Assembly (NCBI RefSeq): GCF_001999965.1
Contig: NZ_CP019646.1
Coordinates: 2,666,001 to 2,730,000, forward strand
Direction of reading: 5' to 3'
Length of the DNA: 64,000 nucleotides
From: Limihaloglobus sulfuriphilus
GTDB lineage: Bacteria > Planctomycetota > Phycisphaerae > Sedimentisphaerales > Sedimentisphaeraceae
The translations under genes were made by a program, and so were the position numbers. The notes under the pieces are model-generated. The model was not told the DNA's origin and did no database searches. It was given only the letters and a program-made list of their open reading frames with translations. Positions 2,349 through 38,500 of the stretch are shown here, piece by piece. Each line of letters opens with the position of its first letter. The first letter of the stretch is position 1.

Positions 2349-3665
2349 CACTACTGTCCGGACGTTTGGACTTTAGATTAACATAAAGCTCTATATAACA
2401 ATTGAATACATAAATTTTTGGCTGTTTTCGATTTGAAATGAGAATCATTGTATAATCAGGTTTTTTGACTTCGAGGTATGCAATGAACTCCGGCAAAATG
2501 GTATTTTCTCAATTGATGGACTGTATTCCCTGGTGGCAATTTAATAATATCGTTGAACAATACCAAGGCAATCATAAGGTTAAACACTTTTCATGTAACG
2601 AGCATTTTCGAGCGATGGCGTTTGCCCAGTTCACCTACCGTAGAAGCCTTCGAGATGTAGAAGCGGCATTCAAGGCAATTGGTAAGAAAGCGTACCACAT
2701 GGGCATAAGATGCAGGATTGCCAAAAGCACATTAGCCGATGCCAACGAGCAAAGAGACTGGCGTATCTACGCCGACTTTGCCCAGGTACTGATTTCAAAG
2801 GCAAGAGCACTCTACGCCGATGAGCCTTTAGATATCGAATGGGATGGCAACATCTATGCTATCGATGCTACAACTATCGACCTTTGTCTGTCCGTTTTTC
2901 CATGGGCAAAATTCAGAAAGGCTAAAGCTGCTGTTAAATTGCATACAAAAATCAACCTGAGAGGCAATATACCGGAGTTTATACACATATCAGACGGCAA
3001 ACTTAATGATGTAAATGCACTGGACTTTATCGTGCCGGAGCCTGAAGCCTTTTATCTTTTCGATAGGGCATATACAGATTTTCAGCGACTCTACTCATTT
3101 ACAAAAGTAAACGCAAGTTTTGTCTCTCTGCTTAAAAAGAATATACTTTGGAAAAGAAGGTATTCTCACCATGTAGATAAAACCTCTGGTGTTCTAAGCG
3201 ACCAGACAATCATATTGACAGGTAAGGATACGCCAGTATATTACCCTGAACCATTGAGGCGAATACATTACTACTCAGAAGAGATACAGAAGCATTTGGT
3301 CTTTGTGACTAATAATTTTAGCCTGCCTGCAATAGTTGTGGCAAAGCTATATAAAATGCGATGGAAGGTTGAGTTGTTCTTCAAATGGATAAAGCAAAAT
3401 TTACGTATAAAGACTTTCTTTGGGTGTAACCCAAATGCCGTAAAGGTGCAGATATGGATAGCTATTTGTGCCTATTTGATTGTAGCTATCGTAAGGAAAG
3501 AACAAGAAATAGTTCAGCCAATGTCAGAAATTCTACAGGTATTGGGTATCACTCAACTGGAGAAAAAGCCCATTTTTGAGCTGTTTAAGGGCGATTTGTC
3601 CCAGAACCAAAATGACCAGCTTTGTAACCAATTGACATTGTTTGACTTATAACCGGACACTAATG
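2349..3665 (+). mobile_element. IS4-family insertion sequence nested in the IS1634-like element
   Basis: The imperfect 13-bp terminal repeats CACTACTGTCCGG (2349-2361) and CATTAGTGTCCGG (complement of 3653-3665) bound a 1317-bp element. It is flanked by a 9-bp target duplication, GGTAAAAAT, at 2340-2348 and 3666-3674. It sits between the left end of the IS1634-like element and that element's transposase gene, so it inserted later. Confidence 0.9.
2483..3652 (+). CDS. IS4-family DDE transposase
   Basis: This 389-residue transposase has an N-terminal DUF4372-like region (FSQLMDCIPWWQFNNIVEQY) followed by a DDE_Tnp_1 domain. Catalytic candidates are D in YAIDATTIDL, D in YLFDRAYTDF, and E in the Y-x-x-R-W-x-x-E-x-x-F-K-W segment typical of IS4 enzymes. 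I chose the ATG at 2483 because CGAGGT lies just upstream. An in-frame TTG at 2465 has no RBS. The gene is full length and looks intact, so the element may be mobile. Confidence 0.9.
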   Translation: MNSGKMVFSQLMDCIPWWQFNNIVEQYQGNHKVKHFSCNEHFRAMAFAQFTYRRSLRDVEAAFKAIGKKAYHMGIRCRIAKSTLADANEQRDWRIYADFAQVLISKARALYADEPLDIEWDGNIYAIDATTIDLCLSVFPWAKFRKAKAAVKLHTKINLRGNIPEFIHISDGKLNDVNALDFIVPEPEAFYLFDRAYTDFQRLYSFTKVNASFVSLLKKNILWKRRYSHHVDKTSGVLSDQTIILTGKDTPVYYPEPLRRIHYYSEEIQKHLVFVTNNFSLPAIVVAKLYKMRWKVELFFKWIKQNLRIKTFFGCNPNAVKVQIWIAICAYLIVAIVRKEQEIVQPMSEILQVLGITQLEKKPIFELFKGDLSQNQNDQLCNQLTLFDL

Positions 3666-3783
3666 GGTAAAAATAAAAATATTTTCGATGTTTCTGGCCT
3701 TTGAGGGGTGTTTTGATTCTGGATTTGGCTTTGGTACAGACCTGCCCTATTGCATAGGTGAATTTCTATGCGATAATTTGGGT

Positions 3784-5544
3784 ATGTATTTGAAAAAGCA
3801 CAGGCGTAAAAAGAACGGTAAATGCAACACCTATTACAGTATTGCTGAGAAGCGGAAGGTCTCCGGTTATCGGCATGTGGAGAAGGTGGTTCTTTACCTT
3901 GGTGAGATCAGCGGCTCTCAAAAGAAGGCCTGGCAGAGATCAATTGAGATAATCAACGAAGATAACAAACCTGTACACAAAACCCTTTTTGCTTTTGATC
4001 AGGACAACCAGAGCTGTCACGATGTTGATACGATACCGGTTAACATCTCAAAGATGAGACTGGAACGACCGCGTAGGTTTGGCGATTGCTGGCTGGCTTC
4101 TGAAATGTGGGATCAGCTTGGTTTTGACCGCTTCTGGTCAGAGCGGATTGATACAGACAGATCGCCGGTCGCATTCTCAAAAGTCCTCAAGTTGCTTACG
4201 GTGAGCAGGCTGATAAAACCTTCTGCCGAATACTTTGTCCATCAGCACTGGTTCAGCCAGAGTGCTATGGACGCCATCCTTGATTGTGATTTTGAGATTG
4301 CCGAGAAAAACAGGCTCTACCGTTGTCTTGACCGTATCCTTCCATACAAAGACGAACTTTGCAAATACCTTAAAGACACCTGGCAAGGAATGTTCAACCT
4401 TGAGTACGACATCCTGCTCTATGATATCACCAGCACGTATTTCGAGGGGCTATGCAAGCAGAATCCCAAGTCAGAATTCGGCCACAGCAAAGACAGACGC
4501 AGTGATTGCAGACAGGTGCTGATAGCCCTTGTTGTTACGCCGGAGGGCTTTCCTCTTGACTACGAAGTACTTCAGGGAAATACATCTGAAAAGACGACAT
4601 TAAGACCCCTGCTCAACAAGATAGAAACAATGTACGGCAAGGCCAACAGGGTCTGGCTGATGGACAGGGGCATACCAACGGAAGCTACGCTCAAGTTCAT
4701 GCGTAAGAACAATATAAGCTATCTTGTTGGCACACCCCGCAGACAGCTCGATGATTATAGCAGTGAACTTTCTGAAAAGGACTGGGAGCAGGTAAACAGC
4801 AGTGTTCATGTGAAATACATCGAAAAAGAGGGCGAATGCTATGTCCTTGCCAGGAGCAGGGATCGTATGCAAAAGGAGAGGGCCATGCGTAAAAGAAAAC
4901 TGCGTAAATATCTTGACGGACTTGAAAAACTCAAGGGATATCGCAATTATGAACGTTTTTATAAACGCCTTGGGGCTTTGCAATCGCAGGCCGGTAACGC
5001 TTATAGATGTGTGGAGCTCGATATTCCGGGGCAAAAGGAGCGGATTGAAGCCGGCGAATTCAGGTATCACATAAACCGGCAGAAATACCGTGATATGATC
5101 TATCGTGACGGCAAGTACTTTTTGCGGACCAATCAGAAGGGCAAGGATGGTAAGGCACTCTGGAATGAGTATATGCTGCAGTGCAACGTTGAGCAGTCTT
5201 TCAGAGAACTCAAGAGTGATCTTGGCATTCGCCCTGTATATCACCATAAAGAAGAGCGTGTTGATGCCCATATCTTTGTGGCGTTTATAAGTTATTGCCT
5301 GCAGGTGACATTGCGGCATAAGCTGCGGGTGAGTGCCTGTGGCCTAACCGCACAGGCTGCCCTGGAAACGATGAGCCGTATCCAGATGCTTGATGTGACA
5401 TTTGAAACACTTGACGGTCGGTACCTCTTGATGGAGAGATACACCGAGCCCGAGGCAGATCAGCGTCTGATACTGCACCACCTGAACATGGATCTGCCGC
5501 TGCAGAAGCCACCCAAAATATACAGCAGCCAGGTCAAAGATTAA
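3784..5544 (+). CDS. IS1634-family transposase
   Basis: This is a 586-residue DDE transposase of the IS1634 type. It has LLYDITSTYFEG with the first catalytic Asp, VWLMDRGIPTE with the second, and a late QCNVEQSFRELKSDL with the catalytic Glu. A lysine-rich helical insert (about residues 370-420) separates the second Asp from the Glu, as is usual in this family. The ATG at 3784 gives the natural N-terminus MYLKKHRRKKNGKCNTYYS. The reading frame is open for another 32 codons upstream, but that part lacks family character. The gene is intact, although the IS4 element lies upstream and may have displaced its promoter. Confidence 0.9.
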   Translation: MYLKKHRRKKNGKCNTYYSIAEKRKVSGYRHVEKVVLYLGEISGSQKKAWQRSIEIINEDNKPVHKTLFAFDQDNQSCHDVDTIPVNISKMRLERPRRFGDCWLASEMWDQLGFDRFWSERIDTDRSPVAFSKVLKLLTVSRLIKPSAEYFVHQHWFSQSAMDAILDCDFEIAEKNRLYRCLDRILPYKDELCKYLKDTWQGMFNLEYDILLYDITSTYFEGLCKQNPKSEFGHSKDRRSDCRQVLIALVVTPEGFPLDYEVLQGNTSEKTTLRPLLNKIETMYGKANRVWLMDRGIPTEATLKFMRKNNISYLVGTPRRQLDDYSSELSEKDWEQVNSSVHVKYIEKEGECYVLARSRDRMQKERAMRKRKLRKYLDGLEKLKGYRNYERFYKRLGALQSQAGNAYRCVELDIPGQKERIEAGEFRYHINRQKYRDMIYRDGKYFLRTNQKGKDGKALWNEYMLQCNVEQSFRELKSDLGIRPVYHHKEERVDAHIFVAFISYCLQVTLRHKLRVSACGLTAQAALETMSRIQMLDVTFETLDGRYLLMERYTEPEADQRLILHHLNMDLPLQKPPKIYSSQVKD

Positions 5545-5815: not shown

Positions 5816-6988
5816 TTATTTCTTGCAATATAGATTAAATAAAAACACATGAATAATGACTTCGTGATTTATATCTTCAGGGGAATGGTATTTACAACGC
5901 CACTCTCCACCATGTTCTGAATCCAAAGTTTTGATATAACCTGTATAGCTTTCTAAAAGCCCCTTGATTTTATCTTTTATCTTCATGAAACTGGCATTGT
6001 GCTTATTAAATAATATCACTGATGCCTTGCAATCTCTCCAGATAAGGTAGCCAAATAGTTGGTCAATTGCTTCATGAACAACTTTGTCACCTGTCCATAT
6101 CTTACATTCCGCAATAAAAGAAGCTTTATCATCTTTTAGTATCAAGATATCAGTTTTCCCTTTTTTTCGAAAAGTCTCAGCAGTTGCTAATCCTTCATAT
6201 TTTGTATTTAAATTTGTGCGGATAAGATTCCTTAATGCTTCTTCACCTAATTCCTTGCAATCATTTGGAGACTGCTCCAGGGACAAACCACTATTGCGAA
6301 TAGCCTTCAGTATATCTTCATAATCATCAGGTTCAATTACTTCACTCGTTACACCCTTTTTAATTTTACAATTGATTACCTGATTATTCTCTACAAGGCT
6401 TTCATCTCTTACTTCACCGGCAATTCCTTCAACATTACTGCCTGCTCCAATACCAACAATTTCAGTATTTATAACTTGGTTGTTTCTAATTTTTGATTTA
6501 CCGTGAGTCATACCTGACACACCTCCAGCTTTACCGTTCGATTTAATATTTCCGCCAATGACATAATTCCCAGCAACCTCACCTCTACTATCTCCTGTAA
6601 TTGCTCCAGCAACATCTTCAGCCGTAATAAGGGAACCATTAACTTTACAGTTAATAATCTGAGCTCCTTCATCAATTTGCCCTGCTATTACTCCCACTTT
6701 GCTTCTACCTTCTACCTCTGCCCCTTCAATACAAAGATTTTTTACAACTGCGTTTGGCCCAAGCCGAGCAAATAAGCCTATATTGTCAAGTCCTGGAAAT
6801 TTTGATTTCAAACCAGTGATTTTATGACCCTTTCCATCGAATTTGCCGTTGTATGGAGTAACAACTACACCTTTATGATTAAAACTTTCCAGTTTTGGCT
6901 TAGATACCGGTGGAGATATTTCCCCACTGCTGGCAAGCTCCGAAACCAATCCCTTTGCAGTTTTCTTTCGGCTAATCTTCTTTTTCAT
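5816..6988 (-). CDS. GLUG-repeat protein with C-terminal PD-(D/E)XK nuclease-like domain
   Basis: This 390-residue protein begins with a basic, Ser/Pro-rich N-terminus and no signal peptide. Residues about 50-215 hold roughly five GLUG-type beta-helix repeats, for example IGLFARLGPNAVVKNLCIEG and VGVIAGQIDEGAQIINCKV. The C-terminal part has the nuclease signature TDILIL...FIAECKIW (Asp, then E-x-K), followed by AIDQLFGYLIWRDCKASVILF, seen in a family of restriction-endonuclease-like proteins. GLUG repeats usually occur in secreted adhesins, so their place in a cytoplasmic nuclease is unusual. It is the third gene after the XRE-ImmA and PIN genes, 45 bp downstream of the PIN gene, with an AAAGGA RBS. 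A defence role is inferred. Confidence 0.7.
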   Translation of the reverse strand: MKKKISRKKTAKGLVSELASSGEISPPVSKPKLESFNHKGVVVTPYNGKFDGKGHKITGLKSKFPGLDNIGLFARLGPNAVVKNLCIEGAEVEGRSKVGVIAGQIDEGAQIINCKVNGSLITAEDVAGAITGDSRGEVAGNYVIGGNIKSNGKAGGVSGMTHGKSKIRNNQVINTEIVGIGAGSNVEGIAGEVRDESLVENNQVINCKIKKGVTSEVIEPDDYEDILKAIRNSGLSLEQSPNDCKELGEEALRNLIRTNLNTKYEGLATAETFRKKGKTDILILKDDKASFIAECKIWTGDKVVHEAIDQLFGYLIWRDCKASVILFNKHNASFMKIKDKIKGLLESYTGYIKTLDSEHGGEWRCKYHSPEDINHEVIIHVFLFNLYCKK

Positions 6989-7033
6989 TGCGTTTATCCT
7001 TTTATTGAACTAATTTGCTCAAATGGCAAAAAA

Positions 7034-7543
7034 TCATAAACCTAATTTCTCTTTGAACTTTTCTACAGTTTTATCTCTGATAAATGCGTTATCCTTCTGG
7101 ATGCTCAGAGCTGTATTATAAGCTGTTTCTGCCTTTATTATGCCGTTTGAGACCAGATAAAGCATTATTTCCAGCCCCCAGATACATTCAACTTTATTAT
7201 TGGCACAATGCGTCCTTAGAGCTGTATCGTTAGTCAAACATGTCCAGTCATTATCCCTTGCAAGAACGTAACATATGGCATCCTGACCCGACAGGGACGG
7301 TTTATGCTCTCTGACAGATACCGCTTCAATTACCTGCATAAAAGACGGCTCAATAATTACTATTCCCAACTTTTTTACATCCTCTTCAGATAGCTGTCCT
7401 ACTTCACGCAATACAGGTAATGCCACATAAATATTTCCAAAATGTCTGCATATCAGTTTCAAAACTTTTGGAGCTGAATTGACATAATCAATCAACACAT
7501 TCGCATCAGAGATGATGCCCGCTTTTAGTTTCCTGGTCCTCAT
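7034..7543 (-). CDS. PIN-domain ribonuclease-like protein (probable toxin)
   Basis: This 169-residue protein has PIN-domain acidic residues: D13 and D19 in SDANVLIDY, E47 in LREVGQ, D88 in SGQDAICYVLAR and D106 in LTNDTALR. PIN proteins are Mg-dependent RNases and often serve as toxins. Its start overlaps the stop of the XRE-ImmA gene by 4 bp (ATGA), which implies translational coupling. The order antitoxin then toxin is normal for type II systems. Related PIN proteins paired with ImmA-type regulators are known from genome neighbourhoods. The RNA target is unknown. Confidence 0.8.
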   Translation of the reverse strand: MRTRKLKAGIISDANVLIDYVNSAPKVLKLICRHFGNIYVALPVLREVGQLSEEDVKKLGIVIIEPSFMQVIEAVSVREHKPSLSGQDAICYVLARDNDWTCLTNDTALRTHCANNKVECIWGLEIMLYLVSNGIIKAETAYNTALSIQKDNAFIRDKTVEKFKEKLGL

Positions 7544-8664
7544 GAAGGAATATCTGCCCAGGAATTAATGGTTGCTCTCATATTTTCAAGCGAGACATTC
7601 AACATTTCGGCAGCCCTGCTGACAGTTATCTGTGATTTATCCAACGCTCTCCTTACCAGAGAAGGATAATAATCTTCTACAAAATCCAACTTTACCAAAG
7701 GAACAGGTTCTTTACGGGAATTGATTTTTTCTTTATTGCCCTTATTATAAAGATATATAAACTTCGGAAGAAGTTTCCCGTATTCTCCTAACCCCATATC
7801 CGACATTCTATGTATTACAGATGAATAGCTCACTCCAAAGAAGCGTTTGAGATGTAAAACTCTTTCAACAAACCCTAAACCATAGGATTCATGTAATTTT
7901 TTCTCAAATGCCCGCTGAGGCATCAAAAAATACCCGGCAAACCTATCTGCCTCAATCTCTTCTTTTTTACCTTCTCCAATACAGTCTTTACTGTAGTCTC
8001 CCGGATGTAAAATGAGATGCCCCAGTTCGTGAGTTACCGTAAATATCTGCCTCTCGATAGTAATTGAAGGGGCACTGTTGACCACTATTGCCGGTCCACC
8101 GTCTGCTTCAGCTATGGAAAAACCAAAGAAATTCTTGATATCAAAGTTCTGGGTTTTTACCTTTATTCCGGCACTTTCAACTAATCCTAATATGTCTCCT
8201 ATCGGCTCATCTTCTTTCAAGCCCAGAGTTTTTCTTACCAACTCAGCGGCCCTTTTGGGACGGTCAACATCAAATTTTTCAATTTTGGGCTGAAGATTCT
8301 TTAACTGATACGGCTTAATGTCAGATACAGCAGACTGAAGAAAATTAAAGTTTTTCAGCCAGTATGCGGTCTCAATGAGGCAGAGTTCCTTGTTGGCTTT
8401 ATCTTTCTGGGTCTTTATAGAATTACTTCTGAAACGAACGGTTTCAAGTTTTGGCGGCTCTTCAAACAGCGATATCAAAGGAACATCAAACGCATCCGCA
8501 ATAGACTGTAAATTGCTGACCTTGGGTTCTCTGGTTTTGCCTTTTTCAATATCAGCATAGGCCTGACGTGAAATCTTCGCAGCGGCTGCGGTCTGAGACT
8601 GATTCATTCCGCGGCTGATTCTGATTCTCTTGATATTAACAGGTACTATTTCTTGAGGATTCAT
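7540..8664 (-). CDS. XRE-type HTH regulator with ImmA/IrrE metallopeptidase domain (probable antitoxin)
   Basis: The 374 residues start with a helix-turn-helix at about 9-65 (RGMNQSQTAAAAKISRQAYA). A DUF955/ImmA domain follows, with zinc motif H212-E-L-G-H216 and a third ligand candidate E238 in EEIEADRFAGYFLMP. The last 50 residues (ITVSRAAEMLNVSLENMRAT) could be a second DNA-binding helix pair. In characterised relatives such a protein represses its operon and is itself or cleaves a regulator. Here the overlap with the PIN gene points to an antitoxin-autorepressor. A well-formed promoter lies at 8718-8745. Confidence 0.85.
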   Translation of the reverse strand: MNPQEIVPVNIKRIRISRGMNQSQTAAAAKISRQAYADIEKGKTREPKVSNLQSIADAFDVPLISLFEEPPKLETVRFRSNSIKTQKDKANKELCLIETAYWLKNFNFLQSAVSDIKPYQLKNLQPKIEKFDVDRPKRAAELVRKTLGLKEDEPIGDILGLVESAGIKVKTQNFDIKNFFGFSIAEADGGPAIVVNSAPSITIERQIFTVTHELGHLILHPGDYSKDCIGEGKKEEIEADRFAGYFLMPQRAFEKKLHESYGLGFVERVLHLKRFFGVSYSSVIHRMSDMGLGEYGKLLPKFIYLYNKGNKEKINSRKEPVPLVKLDFVEDYYPSLVRRALDKSQITVSRAAEMLNVSLENMRATINSWADIPS

Positions 8665-9264: not shown

Positions 9265-9293
9265 TTGACATTACAGTTTGTAACGCATAAAAT
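9265..9293 (+). promoter_or_regulatory. Predicted promoter of the abiE operon
   Basis: TTGACA (9265-9270) and TAAAAT (9288-9293) have 17-bp spacing, close to the sigma-70 consensus. Transcription would start near 9300, about 33 bp before the TTG start codon and on top of a third TGTGTTTT half-site. Confidence 0.65.
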
Positions 9294-9332: not shown

Positions 9333-10133
9333 TTGAATGAGTTTCTCATAAATAATCCGGTCTTTTCTACAGAGCAGGTCAAGCAACTTCTTGCACAACG
9401 GGGGACAGTTGGCAGACGCTCTGCTGATTCATGGCTTGGTTACTATCAGAAAAAAGGCAGCATTATCAGAATTAAAAGAGGTTTGTATGCCTCAGTCCCC
9501 ATAGGAGCAGAGCCTTCTACATTCACACCGGACCCGTTTCTTATTGCTTCCCGCATGGCCGATGATGCCGTGCTGGCTTATCATACAGCACTGGAATTCC
9601 ATGGCCGTGCATATTCCCTGCATAGACGGCTTACATATCAGACAGCATCCCCAACACGTTTGCTGACCTTTCATGGCTGGCAGTTCCAGCCGGTTAAGTT
9701 CCCAAAACCTTTACAGCAACATGGAAAAGAAAACTTCGGCGTAATTGGGGAAAACAGAGACGGTATATCAATTCGAGTCACTTCTCTGGAACGGACGCTG
9801 GTTGATGTATTGAACCGCCCGGACTGCTCGGGAAGTTGGGAGGAGATATGGCGTTCGCTCGAATCTATTGAATATTTTGACCTGAAACAAGTCATAGACT
9901 ATGCCCTGCTTCTTGACAATGCCACGACAATAGCAAAACTCGGGTTCTTTCTTGAACAGCACAGCAGGGAGCTTCTTATTGAGAAAGAACAACTTGAAAT
10001 CCTTAAACCGATGCTTCCCAAACAACCACACTACCTCTCTCGGCAAAAAAGAGAAAATGGCATTTTGGTAAAAGAATGGAACTTGATTGTCCCGAAAGAA
10101 ATACTCCACAGGACATGGACTGATATAATATGA
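9333..10133 (+). CDS. AbiEi-type antitoxin / transcriptional regulator of a type IV toxin-antitoxin system
   Basis: This 266-residue protein has an N-terminal winged helix (VFSTEQVKQLLAQRGTVGRR, then IIRIKRGLYASVP) and a C-terminal domain with TSLERTLVDVLNRPDCSGSW, both characteristic of AbiEi antitoxins. In characterised AbiE systems it represses the operon and neutralises the nucleotidyltransferase AbiEii. The start is TTG at 9333, because the nearby ATG at 9337 is out of frame and stops at once. AAAGG lies at a suitable distance. It overlaps the next gene by 4 bp (ATGA). It appears intact, although its toxin partner is truncated and fused. Confidence 0.85.
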   Translation: MNEFLINNPVFSTEQVKQLLAQRGTVGRRSADSWLGYYQKKGSIIRIKRGLYASVPIGAEPSTFTPDPFLIASRMADDAVLAYHTALEFHGRAYSLHRRLTYQTASPTRLLTFHGWQFQPVKFPKPLQQHGKENFGVIGENRDGISIRVTSLERTLVDVLNRPDCSGSWEEIWRSLESIEYFDLKQVIDYALLLDNATTIAKLGFFLEQHSRELLIEKEQLEILKPMLPKQPHYLSRQKRENGILVKEWNLIVPKEILHRTWTDII

Positions 10134-12535
10134 AATTATCCAGACAGGAAATAACTTCTATCTCCGCCTCGACAGGTTTTGAAGCCGGTATTGTTGAGAA
10201 GGTTATCCAACTTCTGAATCTGCTCAACAGAATCAACTCACATCCTTTCCTGAAGAATAAACTGGCACTCAAAGGCGGAACAGCACTAAACCTTTTTATG
10301 TTTGATATACCAAGACTCTCTGTCGATATCGATTTGAACTATGTCGGCCGCCTTGACAGGGAGCAAATGCTATCTGAACGTCCTAAAATTGAACAGGCTT
10401 TGCAGGCGGTATTTTCCCGTGAAGATTTCACTGTAAGGAGCATACCAGCAGAACATGCAGGCGGAAAGTGGAAACTGACTTTTCGAGGTTTTTCGGGCAT
10501 ATCTTCAAACCTTGAAGTTGACTTAAACTACATGTTCAGGCAACCCTTGTGGGAAATCCAAACCCTCAATTCCAACCTCCTGGGCAGCTATCAGGCTCAG
10601 AACATTCCTGTAGTTGACATTCATGAACTGGCTGCCGGTAAACTGGCTGCTCTTTTCGCACGACATCAGGCACGTGACCTTTTTGATGCACACTATATTT
10701 TATGCAATCAGAATCTGGATATCAAACGCCTGAGAACAGCCTTTATTGTTTACGGAGCCAATATCCTAAAGCTCATCGGCCCGCTGTTTCTCGACGAGCT
10801 GCGGGCGGAGTTTGAGCACCTCCGCGGCCTCAAACGGGAAAAAGAAAAACGCCTCATGGAGTTTCAGCGGAAGATATCAGAGCTGGGATTCTTTGATCCG
10901 GCGTGCGGCTGCGGCAACTTCCTCGTGATTACATACAGGGAGCTGCGCCGGCTCGAGATTGAGATACTCACAGAGATACACGCCGGACAGATGCAGATGG
11001 GCGAGTGGGTCTCGATGGTAAACGTAGAGAACTTCTACGGCATAGAGATAGAGGAATTCCCCGCACGCATCGCCGAGACGGCCATGTGGTTGATGAACCA
11101 CCAGATGAACCTCGAGCTATCCATCGCCGTCAACGTTCAAAGGGCGTCGCTGCCGCTGATACAGTCCGCGCACATACTAAACGAAAACGCGCTGCAGACG
11201 GATTGGGCGGAGTTCGCACCGAAAGATAAAATTGACTATATCCTCGGAAATCCGCCGTTTATAGGGAAACACCTTCAGAACAAAACCCAGAATGAAGATA
11301 TGGCTCTGATTTTTGAAGGCGTTAAAAATTTTAAAAGTCTGGATTATGTCTCAGCATGGTATATAAAAGCGGCAGAGTATATTCAGGGAACAAGAAAAAA
11401 AGTAGCCTTTGTTTCTACAAATTCAATCACTATGGGCGAACAGGTTGGAATACTCTGGAACGAGTTATTCAATAATTACAATATCAAGATTCATTTCGCA
11501 CATCGTACATTCCGCTGGACAAGCGAGGCAAGGGGCAAAGCCGCTGTTCATGTTGTTATTATCGGATTTGGAGCATTTGATACAGAGAATAAACGACTTT
11601 TCGAATATGAAAATATTAAAGGTGAGCCGCACGAAATTGAAGCTAGAAATATCAATCCTCTACTAATAGACGGAGACGATATTATAATTATGAGGAGGGC
11701 AAAACCTCTCTCCGATGTTCCCAAAATGGTGTATGGTAATAAACCTGTTGATGGTGGAAATTTAATTTTGTCAGATGGAGAAAAACAAGAGTTCTTAGAA
11801 AAACAGCCAGAAGCTGCAAAATTCATAAAGCCTTTATTGTCGGGTGGTAATTATTTAAAGGATATTCCCCGTTGGTGCCTTTGGTTAGTTGATGCAGACC
11901 CGAAAGAAATCAGATCAATGCCTCATCTAATGGAGAGAATCGAAAAAGTAAAAATCATGAGACTAAACAGTGTTGATTCTGGTGCTCGTAAATTAGCTGA
12001 AAGACCAACGCAATTTCGTGATACAAAGAATCCAGAATCTTTTATTTTAGTACCCAGAGTTTCATCTGAAAGACGCAAGTATATTCCTATAGGCTTTTTT
12101 GGTAAAGATACTATTGTATCCGATACCTGCCAGTCAATCCCCGACGCTACATTATATCATTTTGGCGTATTGACCTCCGAGATGCACATGGCTTGGGTGA
12201 AATATACCTGTGGGCGATTAGAAAGCCGTTTCCGGTATTCCAAGGACATCGTTTACAACAACTACCCGTGGCCAAAGGACGTATCAGCAGAGCAGGCCGC
12301 GGCGGTTGAGGCGGCGGCGCAGGGGGTGCTTGACGACCGGGCACAGTTTCCGGACAGCTCGCTTGCCGACCTGTACGACCCGCTGACCATGCCGCCGGTG
12401 CTGGTCAAGGCGCATCAGAAGCTCGACCGTGCGGTTGATAAATGCTACCGCAGTAAGCCCTTCGCCGGCGAAACCGAACGCCTCGAATTCCTCTTCGCCC
12501 TGTACAGCGAATACGTTGAACCGTTGGTTAATTAG
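10130..12535 (+). CDS. Chimeric gene: AbiEii nucleotidyltransferase fused to the C-terminal part of a type IIG RM enzyme
   Basis: Residues 1-210 are an AbiEii toxin with the nucleotidyltransferase motifs K-G49-G50-T-A-L and R62-L-S-V-D66-I-D68. The normal C-terminal third of AbiEii is missing. From residue 211 on, the protein is almost identical to residues 316-905 of the MmeI-like enzyme at 35059-37776. It carries the methylase motifs DPACGCGNF and GNPPF and the target-recognition region but lacks the nuclease domain. Differences are few (for example R/C in TFRW/TFCW). The junction lies at about 10760 in AATATCCTAAAG, shared by both partners. The frame stays open across the join, so a 801-residue protein could be made. 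Whether either half works is unknown. Confidence 0.88.
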   Translation: MKLSRQEITSISASTGFEAGIVEKVIQLLNLLNRINSHPFLKNKLALKGGTALNLFMFDIPRLSVDIDLNYVGRLDREQMLSERPKIEQALQAVFSREDFTVRSIPAEHAGGKWKLTFRGFSGISSNLEVDLNYMFRQPLWEIQTLNSNLLGSYQAQNIPVVDIHELAAGKLAALFARHQARDLFDAHYILCNQNLDIKRLRTAFIVYGANILKLIGPLFLDELRAEFEHLRGLKREKEKRLMEFQRKISELGFFDPACGCGNFLVITYRELRRLEIEILTEIHAGQMQMGEWVSMVNVENFYGIEIEEFPARIAETAMWLMNHQMNLELSIAVNVQRASLPLIQSAHILNENALQTDWAEFAPKDKIDYILGNPPFIGKHLQNKTQNEDMALIFEGVKNFKSLDYVSAWYIKAAEYIQGTRKKVAFVSTNSITMGEQVGILWNELFNNYNIKIHFAHRTFRWTSEARGKAAVHVVIIGFGAFDTENKRLFEYENIKGEPHEIEARNINPLLIDGDDIIIMRRAKPLSDVPKMVYGNKPVDGGNLILSDGEKQEFLEKQPEAAKFIKPLLSGGNYLKDIPRWCLWLVDADPKEIRSMPHLMERIEKVKIMRLNSVDSGARKLAERPTQFRDTKNPESFILVPRVSSERRKYIPIGFFGKDTIVSDTCQSIPDATLYHFGVLTSEMHMAWVKYTCGRLESRFRYSKDIVYNNYPWPKDVSAEQAAAVEAAAQGVLDDRAQFPDSSLADLYDPLTMPPVLVKAHQKLDRAVDKCYRSKPFAGETERLEFLFALYSEYVEPLVN

Positions 12536-12588
12536 AAATTACGAATTACGAATTACGAATGTAAATTGGACAGGATTAACAGGATTTA
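10760..12588. repeat. 1.8-kb inverted repeat with 34995-36832
   Basis: The stretch from the fusion junction through the stop codon and about 50 bp of downstream DNA matches the minus strand of 36832-34995 at near identity. The downstream part differs in the number of AATTACG units (three at 12537-12557, five in the other copy) and in one extra CAGGATTA unit. The shared flank shows that a DNA segment was copied, not just coding sequence. Confidence 0.9.
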
Positions 12589-12628: not shown

Positions 12629-13588
12629 ATGGATAACTCTGAAAGTCTAATATCTGTGAAATATGTAGGAGAAAGAACTAAGAATGGAATTATGGATGCA
12701 AGAACTTCTGCAGAAGCTTTAATAGGTTTTGACCGTATGTTCAGGTATGCAATTAGCGAGAAAGAACCTGATTTGAAAAACGTAAATTTTGAACTACCAG
12801 TTAGAATTAGGAAAGGCAGTTGGGAAATAAGTTTTTCAGGGGCCTGCCAAATTGCGTTTACTGCTTACATTTCTGGTTTTTTTCTAAAAGCGTCTCAAGT
12901 TGGATTTCAGGAAACAGGAACTGTAAGAAATATTGGAGAATTGATTAAGTGGTGCGGCAAAGCAGTTCAGTATTTAATAAAAATCACAAAACATATCGGA
13001 ACGCTTGATGTTGAAGGATGTGAGATAGGTTCCAATACTCTTAGTGGTGTACATGTTGAAATCATTAACGGAGAAGGAAAGCCGTTATTAGTGCCAGTCG
13101 AGTTTTTAAGATTTGCTGAAGAATGCCCGCGTAATCTTCTCGAAAATAGTGTTGGTATCATTGAAGAAAATCGGGAGATGGTCATTGAAACATCTGATGG
13201 GGAACAAGTCAGAATACAAAATAAAGAAAAGGGTATATATTTACCAGAGCTGGAAGAAGATGATATGGATATTGTATTGCCCGAACTTAAACACGGCGAT
13301 AATGTTGAACTTGTTGGGAAAATAACAAGAACTAATGAAAAGGAAAAGAGTGTTGGTTTTTTCTACGGAGGACATACTCTGACAATGAAACCAGAATCAG
13401 GTAACCTTGAGCAATTTAAGTCTCAAATAGTTTCACCAGACAGCGGACATATTTTTTCGGAAAAAGTAAAAGTTTGGGGTAGGGTTGAGAGAGAGGATGC
13501 AGAAGGGAACTTTAAATATCAAAGACCTCGTATCTTTTTCAGTGAAATCAAATCCATTGAGAAGATGCCACGAACTTTATTTGACTAA
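12629..13588 (+). CDS. Uncharacterised protein, first gene of a two-gene unit
   Basis: I do not recognise this 319-residue protein with confidence. Its N-terminus (LISVKYVGERTKNGIMDART, then SAEALIGFDRMFRYAI) recalls a family of accessory-region proteins that begin with a similar beta strand and helix. A hydrophobic patch at about residues 72-90 (CQIAFTAYISGFFLKAS) may be a helix or weak membrane contact. The C-terminal 100 residues look like a small beta domain (VELVGKITRTNEKEKSVGFF, then KVKVWGRVERE). An AAAAGGA RBS precedes ATG 12629. The next gene follows after 19 bp, so the two are probably co-transcribed. The setting beside AbiE and RM genes suggests defence (inference). Confidence 0.6.
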   Translation: MDNSESLISVKYVGERTKNGIMDARTSAEALIGFDRMFRYAISEKEPDLKNVNFELPVRIRKGSWEISFSGACQIAFTAYISGFFLKASQVGFQETGTVRNIGELIKWCGKAVQYLIKITKHIGTLDVEGCEIGSNTLSGVHVEIINGEGKPLLVPVEFLRFAEECPRNLLENSVGIIEENREMVIETSDGEQVRIQNKEKGIYLPELEEDDMDIVLPELKHGDNVELVGKITRTNEKEKSVGFFYGGHTLTMKPESGNLEQFKSQIVSPDSGHIFSEKVKVWGRVEREDAEGNFKYQRPRIFFSEIKSIEKMPRTLFD

Positions 13589-13607
13589 ATAGTAGATTAC
13601 TGTTTTC

Positions 13608-14363
13608 ATGGATTTATTTATGAATATTTATGACAAGACAGCTGAGGATGTTATCAAACCTGATTTTTTTGAAGAGTACGAGAGGCTTCATAAAGACATA
13701 TGGGGGCGACTGATTCAGATAAATACCAGTATCACTATATTAGAGACTATTAGTAATTATCCATTAAAACATATTTCTTCGCCACAGAATAATATTTTTT
13801 GGAGTATGGTTCACTGGAATTTTATCTATTCGGTAATTGTACTTCTTCATGGGTTGATTAGCGATCAAGGCGGTTCTAAACTTACACTTCAAAGAATGAA
13901 GAACAAAGTCGATCTGTGGATCAAAGATGATATGAGAAGTGACTTCAGGGAACATGTAAAGAAGGCTAAATTTGACAGTGAAATAAGAATCCTTCGAAAA
14001 AAGGCCGCTAATATGCGAAACAAGATTATTGCCCACAGGGCTATTGTAAATGATAAAGATCGAGTTGAAGGTATGAGAGTTTCAGACGTTCGTAAATTAT
14101 TCGAAGCTGCCGAGCGGCTTTTTCAGGCGTGCTGTTTTGGAACGGAGTATGTTACTACTTTTTATCTTGATTCTACATGCGGTGGTAAGCCGGTTAAGCG
14201 AGATATAGACGAATTACTTGAAATGTTAGTCAAGAATTCTTACTGGTTCAATATGCCTGAAAAAAGAGGGGAGTTCTGGGAAATGGACAAGAAGTATATG
14301 AACAAAGAAGAACTAAAAGATTTGATTAAATGGCGGAAAAAGCTGGGTGTAGATAATATTTAG
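13608..14363 (+). CDS. HEPN-like / AbiU2-like protein
   Basis: This 251-residue, largely helical protein has the segment FIYSVIVLLHGLISDQGGS followed by MRNKIIAHRA. The latter matches the R-x4-6-H motif of HEPN ribonuclease domains and resembles AbiU2-type proteins. HEPN proteins often act as RNases in toxin-antitoxin or abortive-infection systems. It lies 19 bp downstream of the unknown gene at 12629, which could be its partner or regulator. No RBS is obvious; ATG 13608 is followed by a second ATG at 13620. Function is inferred only from the motif and context. Confidence 0.6.
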   Translation: MDLFMNIYDKTAEDVIKPDFFEEYERLHKDIWGRLIQINTSITILETISNYPLKHISSPQNNIFWSMVHWNFIYSVIVLLHGLISDQGGSKLTLQRMKNKVDLWIKDDMRSDFREHVKKAKFDSEIRILRKKAANMRNKIIAHRAIVNDKDRVEGMRVSDVRKLFEAAERLFQACCFGTEYVTTFYLDSTCGGKPVKRDIDELLEMLVKNSYWFNMPEKRGEFWEMDKKYMNKEELKDLIKWRKKLGVDNI

Positions 14364-29427: not shown

Positions 29428-29505
29428 CACCCCTTGAATAGTGATTTATTCCGCGTTATCCTTGTATAAAGACACGACTTAAGAAGTAATACAAGGAGAA
29501 GCAAT
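29428..29505 (+). promoter_or_regulatory. Integrase leader shared with the remnant at 5723-5800
   Basis: These 78 bp match the leader of the broken integrase. They hold a possible promoter, TTGAAT (29434-29439) and TATCCT (29457-29462) with 17-bp spacing, and an AAGGAG RBS before ATG 29506. The homology between the two loci starts abruptly at 29428/5800, so a boundary of the copied unit lies here. Confidence 0.5.
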
Positions 29506-30528
29506 ATGGCATCTATGGCATTTCATAAGGATTGCGGGAAATGGAGAGTTTTCTGGCATGTGACCCTGCCCAATGGAGAAGTTGATAAGGGGAGTATGTC
29601 CTTTAAGGACAGAAAAAAGGCCAAGAATTTCAAGGAGCACTGCGAAGAAAGGCAGAATCAGCTCAAGAAGGCCATTTTCGTAGAAGATGTATTCCTTGAT
29701 GAGGCTATTATCCAGTGGAAGGATTTCTGCCTGGGCTTTACAAAGGCTACAAGATACCTCTATACCAGAGAGATTGATAAGTTTAAAACCTTTTTAAATG
29801 GCGAAGTTGTTTATGCTTCAGAACTTGAAACCGCCCATATCAGGGATTATCTCAACTATATGCTAAGAAAAAAACTTTCTAACAAGACTGTCAATAATAT
29901 CCTCTGTGCCATAAAATCCCTTTGCAAATATATAACTGAAAACTATAAGCTCAATAATCCTGCAAAGGATATAAAAAAACTAAAGGAAGACCCTCCAAAT
30001 GCCCGTTTCTGGACTTTAGAAGAGTATAGAAGGGTTCTAAAAAACTGCCCTGATTATGTTCAGAGATGGATTAGATTTATTGCCTGCACGGGGCTCAGGG
30101 CTCATGAATTCTGTAATCTCAAATGGGGTAACTGCGACCTTGAAAAAAGGACTATAACGATTATTGGCAAGGGAAGAAAAAAGAGGACTATTGGGCTAAA
30201 TGATATCGCTCTTGGAATTCTTGAGGGTGTCAATAAGGGAGAAAGGGTAATTCCTGATGCCCTTGTATTTGTAAATGATGGTGGAAGAGCTTTAACCCGT
30301 TATAATTTAGCCTGGCATATAGGCGAAGCCTGCCGCGACGCGGGACTCCCTGGCGGCGGACCCCATGCGGCGAGACACTTTTTTGCGACTCAGCTTCTTT
30401 TGAGAGGGGTTCCCATCATCAAGGTCTCTGCTCTTCTGGGTCACGCTTCTGTTACGACTACGCAGCGGCACTACAGCCATATCCTCTCTGCCGACTTGAG
30501 TGATGTAACAAGCGTTCTGGCGGTTTGA
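29506..30528 (+). CDS. Tyrosine recombinase / phage-type integrase
   Basis: This 340-residue protein has an N-terminal SAM-like core-binding domain (about 60-160) and a catalytic domain. Its residues are R198 in TGLRAHE, K222 in GKGRKKR, H287 and R290 in HAARH, H313 in LLGHASVTTTQ and nucleophile Y323 in HYSH. All six are present, so it should be active. The first 93 codons and 78 bp of leader are duplicated in inverted orientation as the remnant at 2129-5722. It lies downstream of, and in line with, the Schlafen-type gene. No obvious att site was found by eye beside its 3' end. Confidence 0.93.
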   Translation: MASMAFHKDCGKWRVFWHVTLPNGEVDKGSMSFKDRKKAKNFKEHCEERQNQLKKAIFVEDVFLDEAIIQWKDFCLGFTKATRYLYTREIDKFKTFLNGEVVYASELETAHIRDYLNYMLRKKLSNKTVNNILCAIKSLCKYITENYKLNNPAKDIKKLKEDPPNARFWTLEEYRRVLKNCPDYVQRWIRFIACTGLRAHEFCNLKWGNCDLEKRTITIIGKGRKKRTIGLNDIALGILEGVNKGERVIPDALVFVNDGGRALTRYNLAWHIGEACRDAGLPGGGPHAARHFFATQLLLRGVPIIKVSALLGHASVTTTQRHYSHILSADLSDVTSVLAV

Positions 30529-31908: not shown

Positions 31909-33678
31909 ATGGTAAATTTTCAGGATAAAGCCAATTTTATCTGGCAGGTTGCGGATGACATCCTCCGCGGGGCGTTCAAGCAGCATGAATACGGCGAAGT
32001 AATCCTGCCATTTGTGGTTCTGCGTCGTTTAGACTGCGTTCTCGAAGAGAGAAAAGACGCGGTTATCGCTACTTATGACAAATACAAGGACGTTCTCGAC
32101 GATACTGCCCAGGTCTGCAAAGAGGCCACAAAGAGGGATAAGAGCGACAAGGGGCTAAACTTCTATAACACATCCTTTTACGACCTCCGCCGTTTAGCCC
32201 AGGATGCCAACAACATAGAGGTCAACTTCAACAACTACATCAACGGCTACAGCAGAAATGTCCGTGATATCATCGAGAATTTCCAAATCGATAAAATCGT
32301 CGCCAAGCTGGTCAAGAACGGCTATCTCTTCCAGCTCATAGACAAATTTACCGAGGTCGAGCTGCATCCAGACCAGGTATCCAACCATCAGATGGGCTAT
32401 ATCTTCGAGGAGCTGCTGCGGCGGTTCTCTGAGATGAGCAACGAGACTGCCGGTGAGCACTATACCCCTCGTGAGGTCATCCGGCTGATGGTCAATATCA
32501 TGTTTGCCGAGCATAAAAAAGAACTCAAGGGCGAGGGCATCATAAGAACCGTATTTGACCCCGCCTGCGGCACGGGCGGTATGCTGGTAACCGCCAAGGA
32601 GCATATAAAAGAGCATATAAACGAAAAGGTAGAGGTTCATATGTTCGGCCAGGAGCTCAACGAGCAGACCTACGCCATCGCCAAGAGTGATGTGCTTATT
32701 ATGGGCGAGAACGAGGGCAATATCCGCCAGGGAACGAGCTTTTCTGATGATAAGTTCGCCGATATGCGGTTTAACTATATGCTTACCAACCCTCCGTTCG
32801 GGGTATCCTGGAAGAAGGAAAAGGCGTTTATCGAGAACGAGACGAAGAACCCATACGGCAGGTTTTCTGCCGGCACGCCGCGTATATCTGACGGGGCACT
32901 GCTGTTTTTGCAGCATATGATATCCAAGATGGAGGTTAACGGCTCCCGTATTGCCATCATCTTTAACGGCTCACCCCTGTTTACCGGTGATGCGGGCAGC
33001 GGAGAGTCCAATATCAGAAAGTGGATTATAGAAAATGACTGGCTTGAAGCCGTTATCGCTCTGCCGACAGAGCTGTTCTATAATACCGGCATATCTACAT
33101 ATATCTGGGTTGTTACCAACCGCAAGCCTGAGAAACGCCGCGGCAGGGTCCAGCTTGTCAACGCTTCGGGTTTCTCTGCCAGGATGCGTAAGAGCCTTGG
33201 CAGTAAGCGAAACTTTATAACTGATGAGCAGATAAGAGAGATTTCCGCTATTTATGAGGCTTTTTCAGAAGGTGAATACTGCAAGATATTCGATAACGAG
33301 GATTTTGGATATACCAAGGTGACGGTCGAAAGACCCAAGAAAGATTCAATCAAGTTGGTCACCAAGAACGGGTTGCTTGTAACCAAAGATGGAAAACTCG
33401 TAGCCAAAAAATGTAAAAGAGTTCCAGACTCCAAGCTTAGAGATTATGAAAAGATACCGCTCAAGCAGGATATAGACGAATATTTTGAAAAAGAGGTAAA
33501 GCCCCATGTTCCCGATGCCTGGATGGACAGAAGCAAGGACAAGGTGGGCTATGAAATCAACTTTACCAAGTATTTCTATAAATATAAACCTCTGAGACCT
33601 CTTGAGGAGATTAAGGCGGATATACTGGCCCTTGAGAATGAGACTGAAGGACTGCTCAGGGAGATATTGGAAGGATGA
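31909..33678 (+). CDS. hsdM: Type I restriction-modification DNA methyltransferase subunit HsdM
   Basis: This 589-residue N6-adenine methylase has an N-terminal HsdM_N helical domain, TAGEHYTPREVI before the catalytic domain, motif I D217-P-A-C-G-T-G-G224 and motif IV N294-P-P-F297. In a type I enzyme two HsdM and one HsdS form the methylase, with HsdR needed for cleavage. Here HsdS is truncated and no hsdR is in the window, so the system looks broken. The methylase itself is full length. It is followed within 3 bp by remnant genes and low-complexity DNA. Confidence 0.93.
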   Translation: MVNFQDKANFIWQVADDILRGAFKQHEYGEVILPFVVLRRLDCVLEERKDAVIATYDKYKDVLDDTAQVCKEATKRDKSDKGLNFYNTSFYDLRRLAQDANNIEVNFNNYINGYSRNVRDIIENFQIDKIVAKLVKNGYLFQLIDKFTEVELHPDQVSNHQMGYIFEELLRRFSEMSNETAGEHYTPREVIRLMVNIMFAEHKKELKGEGIIRTVFDPACGTGGMLVTAKEHIKEHINEKVEVHMFGQELNEQTYAIAKSDVLIMGENEGNIRQGTSFSDDKFADMRFNYMLTNPPFGVSWKKEKAFIENETKNPYGRFSAGTPRISDGALLFLQHMISKMEVNGSRIAIIFNGSPLFTGDAGSGESNIRKWIIENDWLEAVIALPTELFYNTGISTYIWVVTNRKPEKRRGRVQLVNASGFSARMRKSLGSKRNFITDEQIREISAIYEAFSEGEYCKIFDNEDFGYTKVTVERPKKDSIKLVTKNGLLVTKDGKLVAKKCKRVPDSKLRDYEKIPLKQDIDEYFEKEVKPHVPDAWMDRSKDKVGYEINFTKYFYKYKPLRPLEEIKADILALENETEGLLREILEG

Positions 33679-33997: not shown

Positions 33998-34363
33998 ATG
34001 ATGAATGTTGACTTGAAGACAAGGACGAAGGGTTTTGCTATTCGGATTATAAAGTTATATGCTGATTTACCGAAATCAACAGAAGCCCAGATTTTGGGAA
34101 AACAGTTGCTCCGGTCCGGAACTTCTGTCGGTGCTCATTATCGAGAGGGGATGCGGGCAAGGTCAGATGCTGAATTCATCAGCAAAATTGAAGGTGGTTT
34201 GCAGGAGTTAGAAGAATCCGTTTATTGGATGGAATTACTCATAGAGTCTGACGTTATTGATGAATATTCGCTTAGTGAATTAATCAAAGAGGCAGATGAA
34301 TTGACCGCGATACTCATTACCTGCGTCAAAAAAGTAAAGGATAGAAAGGAAGCAAAGAAATGA
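33998..34363 (+). CDS. Four-helix-bundle (S23-like) protein
   Basis: This 121-residue protein matches the four-helix-bundle family first found as insertions in 23S rRNA genes. Diagnostic segments are LGKQLLRSGTSVGAHYREGM, then FISKIEGGLQELEESVYWME and a C-terminal ELTAILITCVKKV. Members form pentamers, but their cell function is unknown. They are widespread in environmental bacteria, often in variable regions. It is flanked on both sides by GGATGAAGGCGGAA-type repeats. It sits between hsdM and hsdS, where such genes are often inserted. Confidence 0.88.
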   Translation: MMNVDLKTRTKGFAIRIIKLYADLPKSTEAQILGKQLLRSGTSVGAHYREGMRARSDAEFISKIEGGLQELEESVYWMELLIESDVIDEYSLSELIKEADELTAILITCVKKVKDRKEAKK

Positions 34364-34519: not shown

Positions 34520-34924
34520 TATAAGGATTCCGGTGTTGAGTGGATTGGTGAGGTTCCAAGCCATTGGGCGTTGGTGAAATTTAAGATAATTACAGATATT
34601 ATTACTTGTGGTCATGCAGCAACTCCTGAATATTATGACGAGGGGGTGATGTTTCTTTCTGCTCAAAATATCAAGAATGAAAAACTGGATTTATTTCAAT
34701 ATAACTATATATCTGAAGAACTTCACAATCAACTAACCAGACATAAAAAAGTGGTAAAAGGAGATTTGCTCCAAGTTAGAGTAGGTGGTGCTGCTACAAT
34801 TGGTCAAACTTGCGTTATTGAAATCGAAAATGATTTTAGTATATATGTATCGCTATGTCATATTAGATTAAACGAAAAAGCATGCAATTATTATATTTTT
34901 AAGCATTTACAGGCTGAAGCCTGA
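34520..34924 (+). pseudogene. hsdS: HsdS specificity subunit, truncated at both ends
   Basis: From 34520 the frame reads YKDSGVEWIGEVPSHWALVK, the conserved N-terminus of HsdS, followed by part of the first target-recognition domain (LSAQNIKNEKLDLFQYNYIS, then KGDLLQVRVGGAATIGQTCV). No ATG precedes it, since low-complexity repeats occupy that place; a TTG at 34571 is the only nearby start. The frame ends at 34924 after running into a 160-bp repeat (34898-35057) also found at 38340. A normal HsdS has about 400 residues with two recognition domains. About 118-135 residues remain, so the type I system is presumably inactive. Confidence 0.85.
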
Positions 34925-35057
34925 ACTCTTGCGGCGGTTTCTCACAGGCAGCTCTAATCCCCGCCGCCAACGTCAGTTATTTCCCAATCCTGTTAATCCT
35001 GTAATCCTGTCCAATTTACATTCGTAATTCGTAATTCGTAATTCGTAATTCGTAATT
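34898..35057. repeat. Direct repeat flanking the MmeI-like gene, left copy
   Basis: The stretch AAGCATTTACAGGCTGAAGC and the following 140 bp match 38340-38500 in the same orientation, ending in arrays of CGTAATT units (five here at 35023-35057). It interrupts hsdS and abuts the 3' end of the MmeI-like gene. Confidence 0.85.
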
Positions 35058-35058
35058 T

Positions 35059-38060: not shown

Positions 38061-38364
38061 CCAGGGCGTTGCCCTGGGCTAAGCTATCCAAGCCCTTCAG
38101 GCTTGAGGGATAAACATATCATCCGGAGGCGTTTACCACTGTTTCAAGACGTGATTATTCACCACAGGGGGCTCGGGAAAAAATTTACGCACACATAAAA
38201 AGTTTAACCATTCTCATTTTGCCTAAGCACCAACGGTGCGAAGTATCATAGCGGGGCATCGCCCCATATTCAAACTTGATGGTAAGAGTACACGCTTCAG
38301 CGTGCGGTAAGAATACACGCTTCAGCGTGCTTGTTGTCTTTTAAGCATTTACAGGCTAAAGCCT
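38061..38364. repeat. Cluster of REP-like hairpins
   Basis: Seven perfect small palindromes lie within 304 bp: CCAGGGC-GTT-GCCCTGG (38061-38077), CAAGCC-CTTCA-GGCTTG (38089-38105), GCACC-AAC-GGTGC (38227-38239), GGGGC-ATC-GCCCC (38253-38265), ACGC-TTCA-GCGT twice within a 25-bp tandem (38281-38330), and AGGC-TAAA-GCCT (38353-38364). The 25-bp unit recurs at 14469. Confidence 0.85.
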
Positions 38365-38500
38365 GAACTCTTGCGGCGGTTTCTCACAGGCAGCTCTAAT
38401 CCCCGCCGCCAACGCCAGTTATTTACCAATCCTGTAATCCTGTCTAATTGACATTCGTAATTCGTAATTCATAATTCGTAATTCATAATTCGTAATTCAT
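38340..38500. repeat. Direct repeat flanking the MmeI-like gene, right copy
   Basis: It matches 34898-35057 with few substitutions (for example GGCTAAAGCC for GGCTGAAGCC) and ends in a different mixture of CGTAATT and CATAATT units. Confidence 0.85.

Follow-up and report, generated by a model that had tools for sequence, protein, structure and literature searches.

An in-frame AbiEii-MmeI chimera behind an intact antitoxin gene in Limihaloglobus sulfuriphilus, a probable recombination scar in a defence island

The chimeric gene and its surroundings

The window analysed here is a stretch of 64,000 nucleotides of the Limihaloglobus sulfuriphilus genome (positions 2666001-2730000), which is assembled as one contig of 3.87 Mb with a rated completeness of 99.97%. 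At 10130-12535 on the plus strand it carries one open frame that starts with ATG, runs for 801 codons (801 aa) and changes protein family at residue 210. Using PADLOC models, residues 1-210 match AbiEii (PDLC02305 positions 1-210 of 306, E = 1.9e-81) and residues 210-797 match a type IIG restriction-modification enzyme (REase_MTase_IIG, PDLC03598 positions 320-909 of 912, E = 3.4e-251). Pfam gives the order AbiEii (31-224), MmeI_Mtase (237-491), MmeI_TRD (514-716) and MmeI_C (720-799), with MmeI_N and MmeI_hel absent. The frame, the switch point between models, the Pfam order and the DNA homology described below all bear out the in-frame AbiEii/MmeI chimera that the earlier note had read at this position.

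The toxin part (10130-10759, plus strand) holds residues 1-210 of the nucleotidyltransferase with all four motifs, as judged from PDLC02305 and an alignment with intact relatives of 317-328 aa. The remainder (10760-12535, plus strand) corresponds to residues 315-905 of an MmeI-like protein by Pfam and by alignment to MmeI (PDB 5hr4), and comprises the MTase from motif I onward, lacking motif X, followed by the TRD and the C-terminal helical domain. The range of 316-905 proposed earlier was broadly right, except that the MmeI part begins one residue sooner, at N315. The join itself reads YGA/NILKLIG, and its placement at about 10760 was accurate: by blastn and direct comparison, 10760 is the first base shared with the other MmeI copy in the window, and from there on the stretch AATATCCTAAAG, in which the two sequences had been said to converge, is MmeI sequence alone. 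Codon phase is preserved across the join; entry into MmeI in the two other frames would meet a stop after 2 and 17 codons, respectively. At this position YGA-MNRKDWR is the usual reading in intact AbiEii relatives, and to judge by them microhomology at this left end probably amounted to a few bases at most.

Directly upstream lies an intact abiEi antitoxin gene (9333-10133, plus strand, 266 aa; PADLOC PDLC02270 positions 2-264 of 265, E = 8.7e-108), whose stop codon overlaps the start of the chimera (ATGA). Its product is 36-55% identical, over nearly the full length, to the AbiEi proteins that precede AbiEii relatives. The near-complete match agrees with the earlier description of the antitoxin as intact. 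The promoter was described in the same terms, and a consensus scan does place a promoter-like TTGACA-N17-TAAAAT before the abiE operon (9265-9293, plus strand, 11 of 12 matches), but the number of such sites in the region is not above chance. Translation of the chimera is plausible.

Two genes after the chimera, at 12629-14363, encode a candidate defence protein (matched weakly by PDC-S42/LAPAL) and a HEPN protein similar to AbiU2. On the other side, a minus-strand trio at 5816-8664 consists of an HTH plus ImmA/IrrE-like metalloprotease (7540-8664), an unknown and a PDC-S54 match (5816-6988), and is likely a defence or toxin-antitoxin cassette. A 357-bp stretch at 29428-29784, in which a tyrosine recombinase gene (29506-30528) begins, has an inverted copy at 2129-2310/5622-5800. 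Between the two parts of this copy sits a 3.3-kb insertion, which is bounded by terminal inverted repeats (AACCCCAATTTCTCACTTAGG) and has apparently duplicated its TTAA target. The insertion carries two transposase ORFs, one DUF4372/DDE (2465-3652) and one of the IS1634 family (3688-5544). Outside the window, the same genome has a second AbiEii-like locus (1146043-1148634) with one intact-looking copy, next to which a further copy lies in two pieces and carries an in-frame TAG.

Conserved parts kept and lost by each partner

The locus resembles AbiE systems (AbiEi/AbiEii, DUF1814) and MenT toxins in its antitoxin-toxin order, its 4-bp overlap, its AbiEi-type antitoxin (a wHTH with a C-terminal domain) and its motifs I-IV. 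Its closest AbiEii relatives are 50-67% identical to the chimera over residues 1-211. The residues of AbiEii found by mutation to be needed lie in motifs I-IV (PMC3985639). All of them have counterparts in the chimera (G49/G50, R62, D66/D68, K171, R178 and D183/D186), which are conserved across an alignment of 13 sequences, so the claim that the nucleotidyltransferase residues were all kept holds. What sets the chimera apart from AbiE systems is that the C-terminal 110 or so toxin residues, and with them the helical lobe of the full-length protein, have given way to MmeI sequence.

The loss of the toxin's C-terminal third, also noticed earlier, is confirmed by AbiEii matches that stop at position 210 of 306-322. 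Intact relatives (317-328 aa) have the same YGA motif and then about 110 further residues, typically beginning MNRKDWRTV; in every one of them this region includes several helices and nearly invariant positions. In the predicted structure of one intact relative (mean pLDDT 90.6), the helices beyond residue 210 span 228-238, 250-267, 273-285, 297-304 and 307-318. The best solved matches of that model are the MenT4, TglT and MenT3 toxins, with MenT1 lower in the ranking. MenT toxins are bi-lobed, the short MenT1 included (PMC10435456), and the cut in the chimera would therefore remove most of the second lobe. A search of the genome with a distant query only did not find the missing AbiEii C-terminus. 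When the chimera itself was modelled, its N-terminal 208 residues were predicted confidently. The prediction for the whole protein had a mean pLDDT of 43.7 on a shallow alignment, is uninformative past residue 208, and we conclude nothing from it on the fold of the MmeI half.

The window also contains a complete MmeI-like type IIG/IIL restriction-modification gene (35059-37776, minus strand, 905 aa), as the earlier note had it. The gene covers PDLC03598 positions 2-901 of 912 (E = 0), has all five Pfam domains (MmeI_N, MmeI_hel, MmeI_Mtase, MmeI_TRD and MmeI_C) and matches MmeI end to end, with 5hr4 residues 1-902 aligned at 1038 bits. It is the source or the sister of the 3' part of the chimera. 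In its product the stretch GAHYTSEK, which we take to be motif X following established knowledge of gamma-class methyltransferases, occupies residues 307-314, and the chimera begins right after it. H309 of the complete copy aligns with His314 of MmeI, and HYT is conserved in all 13 homologues aligned from related genomes. The MTase domain of MmeI begins at residue 301, and its His314 stacks on the flipped-out target adenine and is reported to be absolutely conserved in 341 family members (PMC4833311).

The chimera keeps motif I (FFDPACGCGNF, at 254) and the motif IV NPPF (at 374), and shares with MmeI-family type IIL/IIG enzymes most of the MTase from motif I, the TRD and the C-terminal helical domain. 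It differs from them in having no PD-(D/E)XK nuclease, no helical spacer and no motif X with the His314 equivalent, so that its gamma-class MTase is incomplete. The locus had been described as a methylase without its nuclease, which understates the damage: the cut also takes the start of the MTase domain and motif X with its invariant adenine-stacking His. An intact methylase that merely lacks its nuclease is ruled out on sequence by the same loss, and because motif X and its His are gone, the chimera is unlikely to be a working methylase.

The two MmeI copies and the flanking repeats

The MmeI segments at 10760-12586 and 36834-34995 are inverted relative to each other and 98% identical in DNA over 1841 alignment columns, differing by 22 substitutions and in the length of a repeat tail. 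The substitutions are clustered, with none in 10761-11046, 12 in 11047-11260, one in 11261-12335 and nine in 12336-12517. A uniform SNP model was rejected, and at the rate of the patches the two clean tracts would arise with P of about 2e-7 and 2e-24. Since clean tracts are so improbable at that rate, the copies owe their form to gene conversion, or to a diverged allele imported in patches. The clean tract in the middle (11261-12335, plus strand, one SNP in 1075 bp), mapped as a gene-conversion tract, coincides with the AT-rich block of the late MTase and the TRD, and is flanked by patches at about 5% divergence. This block and the matching part of 35059-37776 have about 35-43% GC between flanks of 55-62%, and a TRD swap in the history of the MmeI gene is suggested.

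The SNPs are mostly synonymous: third codon positions hold 17 of the 22 (P = 3e-5), and pN/pS is 0.16. Together with identical tracts lying beside 5%-diverged patches, this indicates two separately maintained copies with later conversion. Most of the divergence dates from a time when selection acted on the protein encoded by each copy, probably before the fusion, when the second copy was still a whole gene or formed part of an allele in another strain. When the nonsynonymous differences were polarised against homologues, derived states turned up in both copies, so neither looks uniquely decayed.

At its right end the duplicated segment runs into a dispersed intergenic repeat (12536-12586, plus strand), (AATTACGAAT)n...GGACAGGATTAACAGGATT, which is also given as (AATTACGAAT)n...TTGGACAGGATTAACAGGATT. 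The repeat is shared with 34995-35058, 38339-38497 and genome position 3385194, and across the genome it has about 44 matches, full or partial. The complete MmeI gene is bracketed by a direct repeat, formed by a dispersed repeat of about 168 bp beside the gene (34897-35064) and its second copy at 38339-38497. An apparent type I hsdS remnant (34523-34924, beginning YKDSGVEWIGEVPSHW) lies downstream of hsdM (31909-33678), and its frame runs into the dispersed repeat next to the MmeI gene and stops there; it has no Pfam match and was assigned by reading the sequence. Between hsdM and this remnant is a gene for a 23S rRNA-intervening-sequence-type protein, a four-helix bundle (33998-34363).

Origin and possible function of the chimera

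The earlier note had suggested that other AbiEii-MmeI fusions would show whether this one is selected. Our searches covered 59 relatives, 397 genomes from the class and 392 from the phylum, sets that overlap in part and amount to about 850 genome searches, and no second fusion came up: the two parts are joined in the genome of the window only. In the other genomes, matches to the AbiEii part stop near residue 210 and those to the MmeI part begin at about 203-211, in separate frames. No location in 72,556 plasmids or 50,697 phages covered 80% of the chimera, and none of 16 AbiEii relatives in GTDB contigs was fused. Searches of viral contigs with both halves gave no matches, so nothing points to a phage origin. 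Within these searches the architecture occurs once, and the genome, plasmid, phage and GTDB results rule it out as a recurrent one. Read in a functional sense, the proposal that one polypeptide joins two defence systems finds no support, since there is no second example and both enzymes have lost a conserved part.

We consider it probable that recent recombination in a defence island left the chimera as an in-frame scar downstream of an intact antitoxin gene. This reading follows from the loss of conserved parts by both partners (motif X with H309 on one side, the C-terminal helices of AbiEii on the other), from the lack of a second fusion, from the right boundary in a dispersed repeat and from the SNP mosaic. 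The ancestor would have had an abiE operon and two MmeI-like copies in opposite orientation, about 22 kb apart, and in a single event codon 210 of abiEii would have been fused to codon 315 in one of the MmeI copies. The likeliest event is a deletion from inside abiEii into an adjoining second MmeI gene; alternatively, it may have been a one-sided-homology duplication anchored at its 3' end in the dispersed intergenic repeat. The comparison, which comes from one genome only, makes such a deletion more likely than a new copy taken from the gene at 35 kb, because most of the divergence probably predates the fusion and arose under protein-level selection. The in-frame outcome would then be a one-in-three chance. 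If the protein is made, it would come under AbiEi transcriptional control, with a methylase that is damaged or dead and at most a residual nucleotidyltransferase toxin, and the gene would be becoming a pseudogene.

Against a scar stand the 801-codon frame without a stop and the intact antitoxin gene, on account of which the chimera might still be a recent functional product, yet with 22 changes placed at random a frame free of stops would be expected in 36% of cases. By analogy with short members of the toxin family that are toxic (MenT1, about 190 aa), loss of a long C-terminal lobe need not kill the nucleotidyltransferase. The most plausible functional alternative, which we nevertheless think unlikely, is accordingly that the nucleotidyltransferase core of residues 1-210 still works, with the MmeI part as inert ballast in place of the C-terminal lobe and AbiEi kept because the chimera is still toxic. 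The presence of every catalytic residue, the confident prediction of the first 208 residues in the chimeric context and the intact antitoxin are compatible with such a toxin, as are the activity of MenT1, which has 189-195 residues in solved chains (PMC10435456), and the tolerance of AbiEii for a C-terminal tag (PMC3985639). However, MenT1 keeps a four-helix second lobe (PMC10435456), and by helix count the cut would fall inside the equivalent lobe of AbiEii, whose further 110 or so residues, with several helices and nearly invariant positions, are retained in every intact relative.

Far less probable still is a new defence protein in which DNA recognition by the MmeI TRD guides or gates the toxin, whether as a DNA-binding toxin or through methylation sensing. 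The TRD and C-terminal domain are intact, the frame is fully open, and the TRD is near-identical to that of the complete enzyme and could bind the same site; but no relatives share the architecture, motif X and the adenine-stacking His are lost, and the selection visible between the copies may predate the fusion. Equally slight is the chance of a selected fusion in which tethering the AbiEii nucleotidyltransferase to the MmeI TRD couples toxicity or AbiEi autoregulation to restriction-site binding. We find it similarly hard to credit that the inverted 1.8-kb copy is a silent partner, trading its TRD end with that of the complete MmeI gene through a 22-kb inversion or through gene conversion. 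The orientation, the 98% identity and the tracts centred on the AT-rich TRD block would suit this, whereas both copies carry the same TRD, so that exchange would leave specificity unchanged, and no recombinase signal is tied to them. The least probable account is that the assembly is wrong and two loci were falsely joined at the MmeI segment, which is indeed a 1.8-kb near-repeat within the same genome. An error is unlikely given the single, nearly complete contig and MmeI segments that are 22 SNPs and a tail indel apart; moreover, a misresolved repeat would be expected to swap flanks inside the repeat and make no new edge, and the AbiEii-MmeI join lies at the edge.

The preferred reading, a recombination scar, places the gene with chimeric and truncated genes that arise by recombination at repeats in defence islands, which it resembles in its exact join, its one end in a dispersed repeat and its mosaic conversion. 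It differs from them in that its frame stays open for 801 codons and an intact antitoxin gene precedes it. Genes of this kind are generally known, and no specific precedent was found among them. The literature likewise yielded no direct precedent for AbiEii truncation or for defence-gene fusions.

The locus is of interest mainly as an example of what recombination can do in defence islands, where nearly identical gene copies lie among intergenic repeats: pieces of defence genes that have no relation to each other can end up in one long open frame. Profile annotation with the PADLOC models calls this locus AbiEii plus a type IIG restriction-modification system, and so counts two systems although each is incomplete. 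Should the fusion protein prove active, it would represent a new kind of toxin, a nucleotidyltransferase targeted to DNA.
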